Origin: Clostridiales bacterium
GTDB taxonomy: Bacteria; Bacillota; Clostridia; Peptostreptococcales; Natronincolaceae
DNA: 57,443 bases
Assembly (NCBI GenBank): GCA_012519835.1
Contig: JAAYPJ010000039.1
Location: forward strand, 1-57,443
Reading direction: 5' to 3'
The notes below the pieces were generated by a model. It had not been told where the DNA came from, did not search any database, and worked only from the letters and a program-made list of their open reading frames with translations. Positions within the stretch are counted from its first letter, which is position 1; each line of letters starts with the position of its first letter. Made by a program: the position numbers and the translations under genes. Shown in pieces: positions 31 through 13,439 of the stretch.

Positions 31-60
31 TTGCAAACGTATATGTAGTTATGATAAAAT
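31..60 (+). promoter_or_regulatory. Probable sigma-A promoter of the c-di-AMP riboswitch operon
   Basis: A TTGCAA element at 31-36 is followed after 18 bases by TAAAAT at 55-60. Transcription would begin near 67-70, about 35 bases before the first conserved riboswitch stem. The match is ordinary and rests on sequence resemblance only. Confidence 0.45.
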
Positions 61-102
61 TAAGTGTAATAGCTATGAATTTATTTAGTATAATTAAAAA
101 AA

Positions 103-204
103 TCGCTGAATTCTGTAGAGAAGCGGGGGAACCAATCTTTTGGGGTGAATCCCATTTGGGATGGGCTGCCTTTGGCCCTAATCCGACAGCTAACTTCGTA
201 AGCG
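103..204 (+). ncRNA. Cyclic-di-AMP (ydaO/yuaA-type) riboswitch aptamer
   Basis: The segment carries the conserved blocks of the ydaO class in order: a CGCT stem strand at 104-107, the AGCGGGGGAACC block at 122-133, the GGGGTGAATCC block at 142-152, and AATCCGACAGCTAAC at 180-194 before TAAGCG at 199-204, which closes the outer stem with CGCT. In this family the aptamer binds cyclic di-AMP and usually switches downstream genes off, typically potassium uptake, osmolyte transport and cell-wall lysis genes. Here the first downstream genes are an opine-dehydrogenase-family enzyme and a B12-dependent mutase-like protein, an unexpected client. Confidence 0.92.
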
Positions 205-236
205 TAAAAAGGGGGAAATACATTCTGCCTATATTT

Positions 237-263
237 AGACTATGGTACCCCATGGTCTTTTTT
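237..263 (+). terminator. Intrinsic terminator, expression platform of the c-di-AMP riboswitch
   Basis: An 8-bp stem (GACTATGG with CCATGGTC, one T-G pair) closes a TACC loop and is followed by six T residues. It lies between the aptamer and the first gene, so ligand binding can be expected to favour this terminator, as in other members of the class. Confidence 0.85.
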
Positions 264-320
264 AGTCCTAAATTTTAATTTCTTGAACAAGATATAGAAG
301 ATTATTTTGGGGGTGATATT

Positions 321-1439
321 TTGGAAAGGGAACTTACTTATTGTATTATTGGAGCGGGTAACGGGGGAATTGCCATGGCGGGTTATCTCGCTATGGTTGG
401 GTATAAAGTTAACCTGTATAATAGAACATTGGCAAGGATATCTCCTTTAATGAGAGAACGGGTAATCTATCTTGAGGGTGAAGAAAAGGGATACGGGGTA
501 TTAAACAAAATCACGAATAATATAGAAGAGGCTATAGAAGATGTGGATATAATAATGGTAACCGTACCTGCCATGGGACATTATAATATTGCAAGGTCAA
601 TGGCACCCTACCTAAGGGATAACCAAATAGTAATATTGAGTCCCGGCAGAACCGGAGGAGCGTTGGAAGTATACGAGATTTTATTAAGAGAAAGAGAGAA
701 TAATAAAATTATAGTAGCGGAGGCACAAACCTTTATTTATGCCTGCAGGTCAACAGCGTTTAATCAGGCACATATATTTAAATCGAAAAAGGAAGTGACA
801 CTGGCTGCAATACCTGCTACGGAAACAAATTATGTATTAAAACTTGTCAACAAGGTTTATCCTCAGTTTATACCTGCAAAAGATGTTTTAGAAACCAGTA
901 TCAATAACTATGGCGCTATATTTCATCCTGCACCTACCCTTTTAAACAGCGGACATATTGAAAGATGTGCGCCCTTTGAATATTATATCGAGGGGATAAC
1001 GCCATCAATAGGAAATTTTTTAGAGAAATTAGATAAGGAAAGAATGGAGTTGGGTAGAATGCTTCAGATAAAGACATTATCCGCCATTGAGTGGTTGGAA
1101 GAAACCTATGCAGCAAAAGGCAAAACTATTTTTGAAGCGGTTCAAAATAATCCTGCATACAGGGGATTACAAGCGCCACAGGGACTGGACATAAGATATA
1201 TCTATGAGGATGTCCCTTACGGATTGGTACCCATGGAATCTATGGCCAATGTTTTAGGTATAAGAACCCCGGCCATAACCTCAATAATCGATATAGCCCA
1301 GTTGATGACCAACAGGAATTTCAGAGAGGAAGGCAGAACTGCGGACAGGCTTGGCCTGGAAGGGTTAAGTGTGGCTGAAATGCACATGTTGGCAAGGCGG
1401 GGAACGATAGTAAGAAAAGAACTGGAGGAGGTGGTTTAG
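321..1439 (+). CDS. NAD/NADP octopine/nopaline dehydrogenase family protein
   Basis: The 372-residue product belongs to the opine dehydrogenase family, whose members reductively condense an amino acid with a 2-keto acid, or run the reverse oxidation, using NAD(P)H. The N-terminal Rossmann domain shows the dinucleotide loop GAGNGG at residues 11-16. The C-terminal helical domain contains the conserved stretch NNYGAIFHPAPTLLNSG, whose His is the expected catalytic base region. The start is TTG, supported by a GGGGGTGAT ribosome site just upstream. The next gene overlaps the stop by one base, so the two are co-transcribed behind the c-di-AMP riboswitch. The substrate cannot be told from sequence. 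Family assignment is firm, pathway is not. Confidence 0.85.
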   Translation: MERELTYCIIGAGNGGIAMAGYLAMVGYKVNLYNRTLARISPLMRERVIYLEGEEKGYGVLNKITNNIEEAIEDVDIIMVTVPAMGHYNIARSMAPYLRDNQIVILSPGRTGGALEVYEILLRERENNKIIVAEAQTFIYACRSTAFNQAHIFKSKKEVTLAAIPATETNYVLKLVNKVYPQFIPAKDVLETSINNYGAIFHPAPTLLNSGHIERCAPFEYYIEGITPSIGNFLEKLDKERMELGRMLQIKTLSAIEWLEETYAAKGKTIFEAVQNNPAYRGLQAPQGLDIRYIYEDVPYGLVPMESMANVLGIRTPAITSIIDIAQLMTNRNFREEGRTADRLGLEGLSVAEMHMLARRGTIVRKELEEVV

Positions 1440-3082
1440 TGAAAAAAATAATAGGGTTAACACTCGGCAATTGTGTTCATGTGGCGGGTACAATGAATTA
1501 TTTGAATTTGGCGGAAAAAGAAGGCTATATAACAGAATTTACGGGTATAGGAATAAGCATTGAGGAATTAATTAAAATCATTGAGGACAAAAAACCGGAT
1601 ATTGTGGGGCTTTCATACAGACTTTCACCTGAACCGCTAAATAATATACTGAAGAATTTAAAAGAAAATATAGATGCATATGGACATTTGAAAAATATAG
1701 TCTGGTTATTCGGAGGAACAGAACCCACAGCATTGGTGGCGGAAAAATATAATATATTTGACAAAATATTTTACGGCACCGAGGATATAGACGAGGTGAT
1801 AGCCTATATAAAGGGTTGGGGAGATTTAGAAGAAGAAATATATCCAAACAGTCTTGTGGAAAGGATTAATTCTAAATACCCATATCCCATATTGAGGCAT
1901 CATCTAGGGCTCACATCCAAAAAAAGAACAATAGAAGCAATAGAAAAAATAGCTGATTCAAAGGTATTGGATATAATATCTATTGCACCGGATCAAAATG
2001 CTCAGGAGTTTTTCTTTGATCAGGAAAATATGGACGAGGGACTGGACGGGGCTGGCGGTGTGCCTATCAGAAATGAAAAAGACTTGCGGGACTTATATAA
2101 TGCGGCCCAGAGAGGAAATTATCCGCTGTTGAGGTCTTACAGCGGAACCAAAAATATACTGAGGTTTGCACAGGTCTTGCAAGATACTATAAATAATGCT
2201 TGGTGTGCGGTACCCTTGTTTTGGTATTCTGAATTGGACAAAAGGGGACCCAGGACATTAAGGGAGGCAATAATAGAAAATCAACAGGTTATGGCCTGGC
2301 ATGGAAAAAGAAATATACCGGTGGAGGTGAACGATCCTCATCACTGGAGTCTCAGGGATGCCCATGATGCGATAGGGGTGGCGGCTGCATATTTGGCGGC
2401 TTATAATGCTAAAAAAATGGGTGTAGGAAACTATATAGCACAGTTTATGTTTAACGTGCCGGCCCATATTTCTGCGGAAAATGACCTGGGGAAAATGTTG
2501 GCCAAGATAGAATTGATAGAAAGTTTACGGGATAAAAATTTCAATATTTATCGTCAAGCCAGGGCGGGATTGGCGAGTTTTCCGACCGATTTATACCAGG
2601 CCAAAGGTCAGTTGGCTGCTTCCGCATATTTGGCCATGGCAATTAAGCCTCATATATATCATGTGGTTGGGTTTTGTGAAGCCCATCATGCTGCGGAAGC
2701 GGAAGATGTGATAGAGTCTTGCAAAATAGTAAGAGGCATAATCAACAACGACTTTTTAGGGCATATAGACCTGACTAAGGATGCAAATGTTCAAAAAAGA
2801 AAAGAGGAATTAATGGTAGAAGCTAAAATTATTTTAGACGGTATAAAATCGCTCAACGAAGGAACCGAGGATCCCCTGTCGGATCCGGGTACATTGGTAC
2901 GGGCAGTAAAATTGGGGATACTGGATGCTCCACATCTTAAGGGCAACCCGGTGGCCAAAGGAAAATTAAAAACCAGAATGGTACAGAGTGCATTATTTGC
3001 ATACGATGAAACAAATTCCAGGATAATACCTGAAAAAGAAAGGATAGAAACCATACTGGGGGATGTATGCATAAATAGATGA
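1439..3082 (+). CDS. Fused B12-binding domain and glutamate-mutase-E-like barrel protein
   Basis: The 547-residue product starts at GTG behind a strong GGAGGAGGTGG site and overlaps the dehydrogenase stop. Residues 1-125 look like a cobalamin-binding Rossmann domain: CVHVAG at 12-17 keeps the His and Gly of the DxHxxG lower-ligand motif but has Cys in place of Asp, and FGG at 91-93 fits the later glycine pair. Residues about 200-547 resemble the TIM barrel of glutamate mutase component E, including the late block around ILDGIKSL and LGILDAPHLKGNPVAKGK. Glutamate mutase is normally two separate chains, so the fusion is unusual. I infer an adenosylcobalamin-dependent carbon-skeleton rearrangement, probably on an amino acid, supplying or using the dehydrogenase product. 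The reaction is unknown. Confidence 0.65.
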   Translation: MKKIIGLTLGNCVHVAGTMNYLNLAEKEGYITEFTGIGISIEELIKIIEDKKPDIVGLSYRLSPEPLNNILKNLKENIDAYGHLKNIVWLFGGTEPTALVAEKYNIFDKIFYGTEDIDEVIAYIKGWGDLEEEIYPNSLVERINSKYPYPILRHHLGLTSKKRTIEAIEKIADSKVLDIISIAPDQNAQEFFFDQENMDEGLDGAGGVPIRNEKDLRDLYNAAQRGNYPLLRSYSGTKNILRFAQVLQDTINNAWCAVPLFWYSELDKRGPRTLREAIIENQQVMAWHGKRNIPVEVNDPHHWSLRDAHDAIGVAAAYLAAYNAKKMGVGNYIAQFMFNVPAHISAENDLGKMLAKIELIESLRDKNFNIYRQARAGLASFPTDLYQAKGQLAASAYLAMAIKPHIYHVVGFCEAHHAAEAEDVIESCKIVRGIINNDFLGHIDLTKDANVQKRKEELMVEAKIILDGIKSLNEGTEDPLSDPGTLVRAVKLGILDAPHLKGNPVAKGKLKTRMVQSALFAYDETNSRIIPEKERIETILGDVCINR

Positions 3083-3191: not shown

Positions 3192-3225
3192 GGGTGGACA
3201 AATTTGTCCGCCCTTATATTTTTAC
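3192..3225 (+). terminator. Probable terminator of the dehydrogenase/mutase operon
   Basis: An 11-bp self-complementary hairpin (arms GGGTGGACAAA at 3192-3202 and TTTGTCCGCCC at 3203-3213) is followed by a T-rich run, TTATATTTTT. The arms abut with no formal loop, so the tip must open by a few pairs. Confidence 0.55.
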
Positions 3226-6713: not shown

Positions 6714-6949
6714 TTTTATATGCCTCCCAAATAATTTTTGTTGAAACAGGGGTATTCAATCAATAACTTGTTAAATATATTGTTTCTTAATGAGACGTTA
6801 TATATGTACCTACAGTAAAAAAACAAAATTTTAAGCATAAGAAAGGGATAAAGGTGTAAAAATAGAACATATTGAATATAAACAAATTATGGGACAAGTT
6901 CTACTTTTATAAATTGTGGGACAGGTTTTGCTCTAATAAATCGCAGAGA

Positions 6950-8840: not shown

Positions 8841-8871
8841 AAACTACAATATAAAAAACCGAATACGGACA

Positions 8872-9050
8872 ATGAATAGAGGAGCACTAAAGAATAGTAT
8901 ATATCAGGTGATAAGGGGAAAAAGCCCCCAATACTGTTATAGAAAGGCTACGGTGCCGAAATTGTTGATATGCTTTTGTATCAGCAGTTGGCAGTTTGGT
9001 GAATAACTAAACTACTGTCATAGGAAAAAGTCTATGGAGAGCTATTTGTT
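8872..9050 (+). ncRNA. Lysine riboswitch (L box)
   Basis: The segment shows L-box landmarks in order: ATAGAGGAGCAC at 8876-8887, AAGAATAGTA with the loop E-type turn, GGGGAAAAAGCCCC, GGTGCCGAA at 8952-8960, and ACTGTCATAGG...CTATGGAGAGCTAT at 9014-9044. Lysine binding terminates transcription of lysine-pathway genes. The downstream asd-dapA-dapB operon is the expected client, which supports the call. Confidence 0.93.
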
Positions 9051-9101
9051 GATTGAGAATTACAATTTTACTTAATACTTTGAAATCTTTCAATTAAAAC
9101 A

Positions 9102-9135
9102 AAAAAACTCCTAGATTATAATCAGGAGTTTTTTA
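9102..9135 (+). terminator. Terminator of the lysine riboswitch
   Basis: AAAAAACTCCT and AGGAGTTTTTT pair around an 11-base loop. It sits between aptamer and asd and is the expected lysine-controlled terminator. Confidence 0.85.
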
Positions 9136-9184
9136 TATTGTAAAGGTGGAAACTATTATAAACGGATGTAGGAGGAGGATAAAG

Positions 9185-10180
9185 TTGGGTTTAACTGTTG
9201 GTATTGTAGGCGGCACAGGTGCTGTGGGAACAAGGATGATCGAAATACTCGAGAAGAAAAATTTAAATATAACAAAGTTGAGAATTTTCGCATCGGAAAG
9301 AACCGTAGGGCAAAAAGTAATGTTTAACAACGAAGAATTAACGGTAGAATTGTTGACAAAAGAAGCGATGAAAGAAAATTTTGACTACCTACTATTTGCT
9401 GCAGGTGGAACTATATCCGGGGAATATGCCCCGATTGCCGCTGAGGCGGGGAATATTGTTGTAGACAATTCTTCATATTGGAGAATGACGGAAGGGATAC
9501 CACTGGTTGTGCCGGAGGTTAATGGTGATGTCTTAAGGGGGTACAGGGGAATTATATCCAATCCGAACTGTTCCACAACCCAAATGGTGATGGTACTCGC
9601 GCCACTTCATAAAAGATACGGTATCAAACGGGTTGTAGTGTCTACCTACCAAGCCGTATCGGGCAGTGGACATAAAGCAATTGACGAACTCGAGAAACAA
9701 CTGTTAGATAAGGATTATCCAAATAAGGTATATCCAAAAAGAATTGCAGGAAATTGTATTCCGCATATAGATACATTTAATGAAAATGGATATACGAGGG
9801 AAGAGCTTAAAATGGTACATGAGACACATAAAATATTAAATGATAATACCATAAAGGTAAATCCGACTGCAGTAAGAGTACCTGTAGTTTACAGTCATAG
9901 CGAATCAATATATTTAGAATTCAATGAGGAACCGGATGTGGATGAGGTACGATCAATATTAGAAAAAACGAAAGGCATAATTGTGGAAGATAACCCGACA
10001 GAAAATGAGTATCCTACTCCATTGGAGGCTGCAAATACCGATTATACCTATGTAGGAAGAATTCGTAAAGATTTGTTTAATTCAAAAGCTTTGTCTTTAT
10101 GGGTAGTGGCGGATAATCTCCGAAAAGGGGCTGCTACCAATGCGATTCAAATTATAGAAACTATCGAGAATTTTAAATAA
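9185..10180 (+). CDS. asd: Aspartate-semialdehyde dehydrogenase
   Basis: The 331-residue enzyme makes L-aspartate 4-semialdehyde from aspartyl phosphate with NADPH, the branch into diaminopimelate, lysine and threonine. It has the GIVGGTGAVG dinucleotide loop at 6-15 and the catalytic Cys129 in SNPNCSTTQ, plus the HETHKI region near the acyl-binding site. I place the start at the TTG at 9185, directly after AGGAGGAGG; an in-frame GTG at 9146 would lie before that ribosome site. First gene of the lysine-riboswitch operon. Confidence 0.95.
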   Translation: MGLTVGIVGGTGAVGTRMIEILEKKNLNITKLRIFASERTVGQKVMFNNEELTVELLTKEAMKENFDYLLFAAGGTISGEYAPIAAEAGNIVVDNSSYWRMTEGIPLVVPEVNGDVLRGYRGIISNPNCSTTQMVMVLAPLHKRYGIKRVVVSTYQAVSGSGHKAIDELEKQLLDKDYPNKVYPKRIAGNCIPHIDTFNENGYTREELKMVHETHKILNDNTIKVNPTAVRVPVVYSHSESIYLEFNEEPDVDEVRSILEKTKGIIVEDNPTENEYPTPLEAANTDYTYVGRIRKDLFNSKALSLWVVADNLRKGAATNAIQIIETIENFK

Positions 10181-10195
10181 AAGGGGGCAATACCT

Positions 10196-11068
10196 ATGTT
10201 TAACGGTTCGGGAGTAGCGATTGTAACGCCGTTTAGCGGCGGAGAGGTTGATTTTGAAAGTTTTGAAAGGTTGATTGGTTTCCATTTGGAAAATGGTACT
10301 CAGGCCCTGATAGTGCTGGGGACAACAGGGGAAGCAGCTACACAAACATTTGAAGAAAGAGGAAAACTTGTCAGTACAGCAGTTGAAAAAGCAGGAGGCA
10401 GGATCCCTGTAATAATTGGTACCGGGGCAAATTATACTCGTGTAGCTGTGGATTATACCAAGCAAGCAGAAGCCCTGGGGGCAGACGGTGTATTGGTGGT
10501 TACTCCATATTATAATAAAGCCACTCAGAATGGTCTTATTGAACATTACACCATGATTGCTAATGCAACAACTCTACCTGTAATTTTGTACAATGTCCCG
10601 GGGAGAACCGGGGTAAACTTAGAAGCAAAAACTGTTGCGGCCTTGAGCAAAGTGGAAAATATTATCGGGGTTAAAGAAGCCAGTGGCAATATAGGCCAAG
10701 TGCTGGAAATTAAAAGACTGGTACCGGAGGATTTCAAAATTTATTCAGGAAATGATGACCAAATTGTTCCTATCTATGCATGTGGGGGGAATGGGGTTAT
10801 CTCTGTATGTGCCAATGCCATTCCGGGCCAAACGCAGCAGATGTGTAAAGCATTTATGGATGGCGATGTTAAAGAAGCCTTGAGATTGCAACTTTTGTAT
10901 AAGCATTTTATAAATCTTCTGTTTTGCGAAGTAAATCCAATTCCAATAAAAGCGGCCCTGAATGCCATGGGGTACATTAAAGATGAGTTAAGGCTTCCTT
11001 TGACATCCATGGAAGAATCCAATAGAAGTAAATTGTTGGGTGAGATGAAGAGGTTAAGTATTATATAA
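10196..11068 (+). CDS. dapA: 4-hydroxy-tetrahydrodipicolinate synthase
   Basis: The 290-residue TIM-barrel enzyme condenses pyruvate with aspartate semialdehyde. The Schiff-base lysine is K160 in IGVKEASGN, with Y132 (LYNVPGRTG), T44/T45 (LGTTGEA) and Y106 forming the catalytic relay. It begins 15 bases after asd with AAGGGGG as ribosome site and is co-transcribed with it. Confidence 0.96.
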   Translation: MFNGSGVAIVTPFSGGEVDFESFERLIGFHLENGTQALIVLGTTGEAATQTFEERGKLVSTAVEKAGGRIPVIIGTGANYTRVAVDYTKQAEALGADGVLVVTPYYNKATQNGLIEHYTMIANATTLPVILYNVPGRTGVNLEAKTVAALSKVENIIGVKEASGNIGQVLEIKRLVPEDFKIYSGNDDQIVPIYACGGNGVISVCANAIPGQTQQMCKAFMDGDVKEALRLQLLYKHFINLLFCEVNPIPIKAALNAMGYIKDELRLPLTSMEESNRSKLLGEMKRLSII

Positions 11069-11092
11069 GTATATAGAGGGGGATCTGTTAGT

Positions 11093-11860
11093 ATGAATTT
11101 ATTAATTAATGGGGTAAACGGGCATATGGGAAAACTGATAAAGGATTTGGCTGCTAAAGATCCATACTGGCAAAAAGTTGATGGAATGGATTTGGGAGTA
11201 TCTTGGGAAGTACTAGAGGATAACTACAATGTGGTAGTGGATTTTTCACATCCATCCGCATTAGACGGGTTGTTGGATTTCTGCATGAAAAAAAATACCC
11301 CCTTGGTAATCGGGACAACAGGATATAGTAAGGAACAGCTGGAACAAATATGGAGTGCCTGCAACCAAATTCCGATATTAAAAGCCACAAATATGTCATT
11401 AGGTATGAATATAGTGTTTGTTTTTGTAGAACAAATTGCAGCAATACTGGGGAATATGTTTGATATTGAGATTATAGAACAACATCATAATCGTAAAAAG
11501 GATGCTCCATCGGGAAGTGCTAAATATATTGTTGAATCCATAGAAAAAGGGTTGGGTGAGATCAGAAAACATCAATACGGCAGATCAGGGGAATGTCCGA
11601 GGGAGAAAGGTGAAATAGGAATACATGCAATTCGGGGGGGCAACATAGTCGGTTATCATGAAGCAAATTTTATAAATGAACTGGAAACCGTAAAAATAGC
11701 TCACGAAGGCCATGATAGGCTGGTATTTGCACAAGGGGCACTGGAGGCGGCAAGATTCATTATGAATAAAGACCCCGGCATATACACAATGAAGGATGTA
11801 TTAAATTTACAATCTTTTTTTGCAGAACATTTACAACCTGCCGTTTTAAAAGGAATATAG
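11093..11860 (+). CDS. dapB: 4-hydroxy-tetrahydrodipicolinate reductase
   Basis: The 255-residue enzyme reduces the DapA product to tetrahydrodipicolinate with NAD(P)H. Landmarks are the nucleotide loop GVNGHMG at 7-13, GTTGYS, and the substrate-binding EQHHNRKKDAPSGSA motif. It closes the asd-dapA-dapB operon. The tetrahydrodipicolinate formed is probably converted in one step to meso-diaminopimelate by the Ddh encoded at 44664-45641. Confidence 0.95.
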   Translation: MNLLINGVNGHMGKLIKDLAAKDPYWQKVDGMDLGVSWEVLEDNYNVVVDFSHPSALDGLLDFCMKKNTPLVIGTTGYSKEQLEQIWSACNQIPILKATNMSLGMNIVFVFVEQIAAILGNMFDIEIIEQHHNRKKDAPSGSAKYIVESIEKGLGEIRKHQYGRSGECPREKGEIGIHAIRGGNIVGYHEANFINELETVKIAHEGHDRLVFAQGALEAARFIMNKDPGIYTMKDVLNLQSFFAEHLQPAVLKGI

Positions 11861-13342: not shown

Positions 13343-13439
13343 GGGGGTAGATGGGTGCTGGTGTGCCCTCTGGTCTTCAAAACCAGCATGAGGCGTTAGT
13401 AGCGTCTTGGGTGGGTTCGATTCCCACGTACTCCCGCCA
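13343..13439 (+). tRNA. selC: Selenocysteine tRNA (anticodon TCA)
   Basis: The 97-base RNA has acceptor strands GGGGGTA and TACTCCC, G73 and an encoded CCA. The anticodon stem CTGGT/ACCAG encloses CTTCAAA with anticodon TCA, which reads UGA. A long variable arm and the elongated D stem (GGGTG...TGCCC) are typical of tRNA-Sec. The gene shows that this organism decodes UGA as selenocysteine, which supports the selenoprotein at 48740-49417. The selA, selB and selD genes are not in the window. Confidence 0.93.

Follow-up and report, generated by a model that had tools for sequence, protein, structure and literature searches.

The window analysed here is a stretch of 57,443 nucleotides (contig JAAYPJ010000039.1, assembly GCA_012519835.1) from a Clostridiales bacterium. 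Near its start, on the forward strand, a c-di-AMP (ydaO/yuaA) riboswitch aptamer at 94..219 is followed by an intrinsic terminator at 237..265 and then by two overlapping genes, encoding an opine dehydrogenase (ODH, 321..1439) and a B12-type mutase (MUT, 1439..3082). The aptamer matches the complete RF00379 model (1-134) with 107.0 bits and E 1.5e-24, against a gathering score of 38. A sequence-only reading of this DNA had recognized a ydaO-class aptamer and terminator ahead of two overlapping genes, while leaving room for failure of the aptamer against the covariance model. The arrangement is confirmed and the match is full length; the start given there, 103, lies nine bases inside the match. 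The terminator consists of a 9-bp stem at 237-258 (AGACTATGG-TACC-CCATGGTCT) and a T-rich tail, TTTTTAG. Read from the sequence, it is situated between the aptamer and ODH, as expected of an expression platform, and the riboswitch is predicted to turn ODH and MUT on at low c-di-AMP. The window starts at the contig start, so the upstream view comprises the 93 bases ahead of the aptamer. Within these a consensus scan found a weak promoter-like site on the forward strand (31..60, TTGCAA-18-TAAAAT, 9/12 matches) with TG ahead of the second hexamer.

ODH has 372 amino acids and a TTG start. It matches PF02317 with E 5.8e-45, and PF02317 together with NAD-binding Pfams above their cut-offs indicate that both the Rossmann and the octopine dehydrogenase helical domains are present. 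Its best solved relative by phmmer is 1bg6 (E 1.8e-85, residues 5-354 aligned), the Arthrobacter N-(1-D-carboxylethyl)-L-norvaline dehydrogenase. The first gene is indeed an opine dehydrogenase of the PF02317 type, as had been proposed. In a residue survey of 72 homologues H202 was kept in 72/72, D297 in 71/72 and R35 in 70/72. His202 and Asp297 presumably form the catalytic pair. An arginine just past the second beta strand is usually a sign of NADPH. The Asn-Arg that follows beta-strand 2 of ODH suggests NADPH rather than NAD as the cofactor, and NADPH use would suit synthesis better than breakdown.

MUT has 547 amino acids, and its GTG start sits within the ODH stop (TAGTG). The N-terminal cobalamin-binding domain (residues 1-128, 1439..1822, forward strand) matches PF02310 above cut-off over residues 3-115 (E 1.1e-8). 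The AlphaFold2 model of the protein is confident (pLDDT 91.9), and in it residues 1-128 match the cobalamin-binding protein 4jgi_B with Z 14.6. The rest of the model is largely a TIM-barrel catalytic domain (about residues 132-528, 1832..3022, forward strand). Its closest match is the glutamate mutase E chain (6h9e_B/1cb7_B, VIA Z 32, rmsd 2.9-3.2 over 371-378 residues), followed by lysine 5,6-aminomutase (Z 28-30.5), ornithine 4,5-aminomutase (Z 27) and methylmalonyl-CoA mutase (about 21). The second gene had been called B12 mutase-like, and the PF02310 domain and predicted mutase-fold barrel bear this out. By the fold of its model MUT is a mutase, but the MutE family model PF06368 reaches only 23.0 bits (E 3.2e-5) against a cut-off of 26.6. 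Because the fold matches and the curated score falls short, MUT is placed as a relative of the glutamate mutase family and not as a member. Mapping of substrate residues onto glutamate mutase by sequence profile gave too weak a match (probability 61), so no substrate claim is built on it.

The B12 motif of MUT reads C12-V-H14-V-A-G17. H14 and G17 are invariant across 78 sequences, and the Asp of DxHxxG is replaced by Cys (C12) in 76/78 proteins of clade A, to which these sequences belong. A more distant group of about 630 amino acids, clade B, retains the canonical DAHTLG. Because of the Cys replacement, use of AdoCbl by MUT is not certain. The window genome yielded no cobalamin adenosyltransferase of the PduO or CobA type. 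It does have a cobalamin riboswitch ahead of genes for a DUF4430 protein and a small membrane protein, which possibly serve B12 uptake.

To follow the pair across genomes, the genome_contigs collection, in which 84,980 species are represented by a single genome each, was scanned with a MUT alignment. At least 550 MUT relatives were found, and 80 loci were kept for study. ODH adjoins MUT in 77/80 loci, a raw count over unevenly sampled species, and in the remaining 3/80 the contig stops within about 0.2 kb of MUT. ODH is the first gene in 68/71 measurable loci, mostly with a 1- or 4-base overlap with MUT. The loci come from Bacillota (Tissierellia, Thermoanaerobacter, Thermoanaerobacterium, Tepidanaerobacter, Fermentithermobacillaceae) and also from Armatimonadota, Chloroflexota, Desantisbacteria, the Asgard archaea Thorarchaeota and Lokiarchaeota, and others. 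A class-wide genome search showed that ODH accompanies clade B too, in loci that reach far enough; the clade B neighbourhoods examined gave no clue to substrate. The ODH-MUT pairing is obligate.

The riboswitch is conserved with the pair in many of these loci. Using a search model built from 24 c-di-AMP aptamers, we found an aptamer immediately ahead of the operon in 39/80 loci and a 3' fragment at the contig start of one more, L114; these counts too are raw. A terminator was detectable in 34/40 aptamer loci; L009, L033 and the window have one as well. In the sister species, whose ODH is 86.8% identical, RNA, ODH and MUT follow in the same order. Since this order recurs in the sister species and in 39-40/80 loci, the arrangement in the window is not due to chance, and the question of whether any relative also keeps the pair downstream of the riboswitch is answered by dozens of genomes. 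The aptamer also occurs outside Bacillota, in two Armatimonadota loci (L132 and L134). About half of the 80 loci are without a c-di-AMP riboswitch. On the MUT tree, aptamer presence requires 7-8 state changes, at least 6 of them forced by well-supported branches, so the aptamer was gained or lost repeatedly.

Twenty-three loci without a c-di-AMP aptamer were scanned with Rfam, and other upstream riboswitches were found in L087 and L106 only. The Desantisbacteria locus L106 has two nhaA-I aptamers (RF03057, 44.2 and 45.7 bits), each with a terminator read in the sequence. One precedes ODH, MUT, a CBS gene and a Na+/H+ exchanger, and the other precedes an Asn-synthase-like gene. RNAs of the nhaA-I type form the Li+-I class and sense Li+, and the terminator-bearing variants are Na+-II riboswitches, reported in Deltaproteobacteria only (PMC9646797). 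The L106 RNAs share with these variants the combination of nhaA-I aptamer and intrinsic terminator. At L006 and L087, which represent one organism, a fluoride riboswitch with terminator lies ahead of ODH, and an osmolyte role does not account for it.

Opine dehydrogenases belong to staphylopine- and pseudopaline-type pathways, so the pair might make a metal-chelating opine of that kind. Around the pair in the 80 loci we noticed no recurring nicotianamine-synthase-like gene, exporter or metal-uptake gene, and control by c-di-AMP and nhaA-I RNAs also argues against a chelator, which we regard as extremely improbable.

The genes under c-di-AMP control elsewhere bear on what the pair might consume. 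The window genome has two c-di-AMP riboswitches in total, and the second precedes genes for a citrate synthase-like protein, aconitase, an isocitrate dehydrogenase-like protein and pyruvate carboxylase, in an order shared by the sister species. The first of these falls in the citrate synthase/isopropylmalate synthase/homocitrate synthase group, within which family models give no verdict; it is read as a Re-type citrate synthase on account of the aconitase and isocitrate dehydrogenase genes after it. Together the set may be read as a route from pyruvate through oxaloacetate and citrate to 2-oxoglutarate, and hence to glutamate. Because the route to both is co-regulated, 2-oxoglutarate or glutamate is a likely building block. 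Elsewhere in the class, c-di-AMP riboswitches precede a gene of the glutamate 2,3-aminomutase type by family match, as well as genes that on inspection by eye look like dapB, potassium transporters and wall hydrolases. In Thermoanaerobacterium under hyperosmotic conditions glutamate and aspartate accumulate, and the main text of that study is silent on ODH and MUT genes (PMC5577258).

Some operons carry an additional gene. An Asn-synthase-like gene adjoins the pair in about 10 operons and a Ddl-like ATP-grasp gene in about 12, and the two are mutually exclusive, occurring together in 0 of about 22 operons. The glutaminase Cys is lost in 7/11 aligned Asn-synthase-like proteins and kept in L085, L086, L091 and L114, while the ATP site with its GEG(A/S)DE motif is retained, in the Cys-less proteins included. 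A lactam-forming role like that of beta-lactam synthetase is conceivable for the Cys-less proteins, which we treat as a lead only. The Ddl-like proteins score below curated D-Ala-D-Ala ligase cut-offs. In the window genome, a search for an Asn-synthase-like partner returned weak amidotransferase-domain matches only, and a search for a Ddl-like partner returned a single Ddl relative (33%) away from the operon. Because neither accessory gene adjoins the pair there and no close copy was found, ODH and MUT are taken as the operon core.

A product built into a peptide by the Ddl-like ligase could be a cell-envelope or wall precursor, and the presence of wall hydrolases under c-di-AMP riboswitches would agree with this. 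The ligase is missing from most operons, however, that of the window included, and the pair is also found in archaea, which are without bacterial-type peptidoglycan. A wall precursor therefore seems very unlikely. Alternatively, the pair could be a catabolic pathway or a fermentative redox valve, the role that opine dehydrogenases play in invertebrates. Many of the hosts are fermenters, and no riboswitch was found at the loci searched in the deeper clade B of Clostridia. Against this stand the NADPH-type Arg35, conserved in nearly all homologues surveyed, control by c-di-AMP and nhaA-I riboswitches, the ATP-spending amide-forming genes of some operons, and the lack of any opine transporter seen adjoining the pair. 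We assign catabolism or redox balance little probability.

Because the pair combines an NADPH-type ODH, a glutamate-mutase fold, osmotic and alkali-ion RNAs, a supply of 2-oxoglutarate and glutamate, and optional amide formation, synthesis of a compatible solute fits best. We consider it somewhat probable that this two-enzyme operon makes such a solute and is on when c-di-AMP is low, as upon osmotic upshift. In the first step, ODH would use NADPH to condense an amino acid and a 2-oxo acid reductively into an opine. MUT would then act by AdoCbl-dependent radical chemistry like that of glutamate mutase, rearranging the carbon skeleton of either the opine as a whole or its amino-acid part, to give a non-protein, poorly catabolised compound. 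We know of no mutase that rearranges an opine. In some lineages an optional third step, by the Asn-synthase-like enzyme or the Ddl-like ATP-grasp ligase, would form an amide and therefore remove the charge of a carboxylate.

The order of the two enzymes could also be reversed for the same solute purpose, with MUT converting an amino acid (glutamate to 3-methylaspartate, for instance) before ODH couples the product. The resemblance of the MUT barrel to glutamate mutase and the co-regulated glutamate supply agree with such an order. ODH is almost always the first gene, though gene order is weak evidence, and the MutE profile match is too weak to show retained substrate residues. We think the reversed order unlikely. 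Returning to the ODH-first compatible solute pathway, a broader form of it is offered tentatively, at slightly less than even confidence. It would be a widespread solute made by the obligate ODH and a new B12-mutase subfamily that rearranges an opine, controlled in bacteria by c-di-AMP and Li+/Na+-class riboswitches, with Asgard archaea also carrying the pair.

The sequence-only reading had suggested a compatible solute or a nitrogen store. Nothing was found in support of a nitrogen store. The osmolyte idea gained independent support from nhaA-I riboswitches in another phylum, the Na+/H+ exchanger, the glutamate-supply genes and published precedent (PMC9337991); the substrate, product and solute role of ODH-MUT are inferred. 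That reading knew of no described pathway with this gene pair, and we likewise found no paper describing it in the open-access literature searched, although tables in the founding c-di-AMP riboswitch papers may list the association. The ODH-MUT pathway itself thus appears undescribed, while riboswitch-controlled osmolyte synthesis as such is already established for beta-lysine and beta-glutamate (PMC9337991). If the proposal is true, it adds a chemically different osmolyte route among organisms for which the main solutes are often not known, gives B12 enzymes a reaction new to them, and makes a testable pathway out of hundreds of annotations that read "octopine dehydrogenase" or "cobalamin-binding". 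Because the pairing is tight, two kinds of osmotic or ion-sensing RNA control it and precursor supply is co-regulated, the function can be tested directly.

The components resemble several known systems. The 1bg6 enzyme is homologous to ODH over its full length (E 1.8e-85) with His202 and Asp297 conserved, but the window ODH differs by its NADPH-type Asn-Arg, its riboswitch and its partner mutase. Glutamate mutase (MutE/MutS, 1cb7/6h9e) shares with MUT the barrel fold (Z 32) and a B12 domain with an invariant His. It differs in having a separate MutS cobalamin chain, whereas in MUT the B12 domain is fused at the N-terminus, Cys replaces the Asp of DxHxxG, and the score lies below the PF06368 cut-off. 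The PLP-dependent lysine 5,6- and ornithine 4,5-aminomutases resemble MUT in fold alone (Z 27-30.5). In the synthesis of N-acetylglutaminylglutamine amide an Asn-synthase-family enzyme also amidates an osmolyte; the amide gene of ODH-MUT operons is optional, however, its glutaminase Cys is absent in 7/11, and no NAGGN synthase partner was seen. The proposed logic parallels the conversion of lysine to beta-lysine and of glutamate to beta-glutamate. The closest parallels in control are ablA (N-epsilon-acetyl-beta-lysine; c-di-AMP/Na+ riboswitch) and eam (beta-glutamate; Na+ riboswitch), in which a riboswitch and terminator stand ahead of the gene for the first committed step in making an osmolyte, and c-di-AMP and Na+ riboswitches occur together on the beta-lysine gene (PMC9337991). 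Those systems isomerise a common amino acid, as proposed for ODH-MUT, but they do so with a radical-SAM aminomutase, in contrast to the opine dehydrogenase and B12-type mutase found here (PMC9337991).

The genome to which the window belongs (G000) carries a second c-di-AMP riboswitch (contig G000:C117; loci L002, L194, L196), and a counterpart of the locus was found in the sister species (G391:C181; L195, L197). Since genes for a citrate synthase-like protein, aconitase, an isocitrate dehydrogenase-like protein and pyruvate carboxylase lie downstream of this riboswitch, synthesis of 2-oxoglutarate appears to be controlled by c-di-AMP. On contig G000:C17 (L193) a cobalamin riboswitch precedes a gene for a DUF4430 protein and one for a small membrane protein; the two possibly function in B12 uptake. 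No adenosyltransferase of the PduO or CobA type was found in G000.

Within the window, inspection by eye showed a GC-rich inverted repeat with an A/T-rich stretch behind it, 3' of the mutase gene (3192-3220); this is possibly the terminator of the opine dehydrogenase-mutase operon. A lysine riboswitch (locus 8869-11860; 113.6 bits) lies upstream of semialdehyde dehydrogenase, dihydrodipicolinate synthase and dihydrodipicolinate reductase genes. A selenocysteine tRNA gene is located at 13343-13435 (RF01852, 70.2 bits).

The more distant clade B mutases (L020-L024, L153-L157) are ~630 amino acids long with a canonical DxHxxG motif, and they too are partnered by an opine dehydrogenase where the contig extends far enough. 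No common neighbor genes were noticed around these loci. Asparagine synthase-like proteins adjoining the opine dehydrogenase-mutase pair lack the glutaminase cysteine at L103, L106, L113, L119, L122, L135 and L083, and in some of them the glutaminase domain is partly deleted.

In a single Bacillota MAG, the same opine dehydrogenase-mutase pair lies downstream of a riboswitch for fluoride and a terminator (RF01734, 50.3 bits; L006 182-243, L087 6685-6746). The Desantisbacteria contig L106 has two nhaA-I aptamers (6763-6816 and 11456-11508), each with a terminator. Desantisbacteria are not among the Deltaproteobacteria, the only group in which PMC9646797 found the terminator-bearing nhaA-I variants described as Na+-II.
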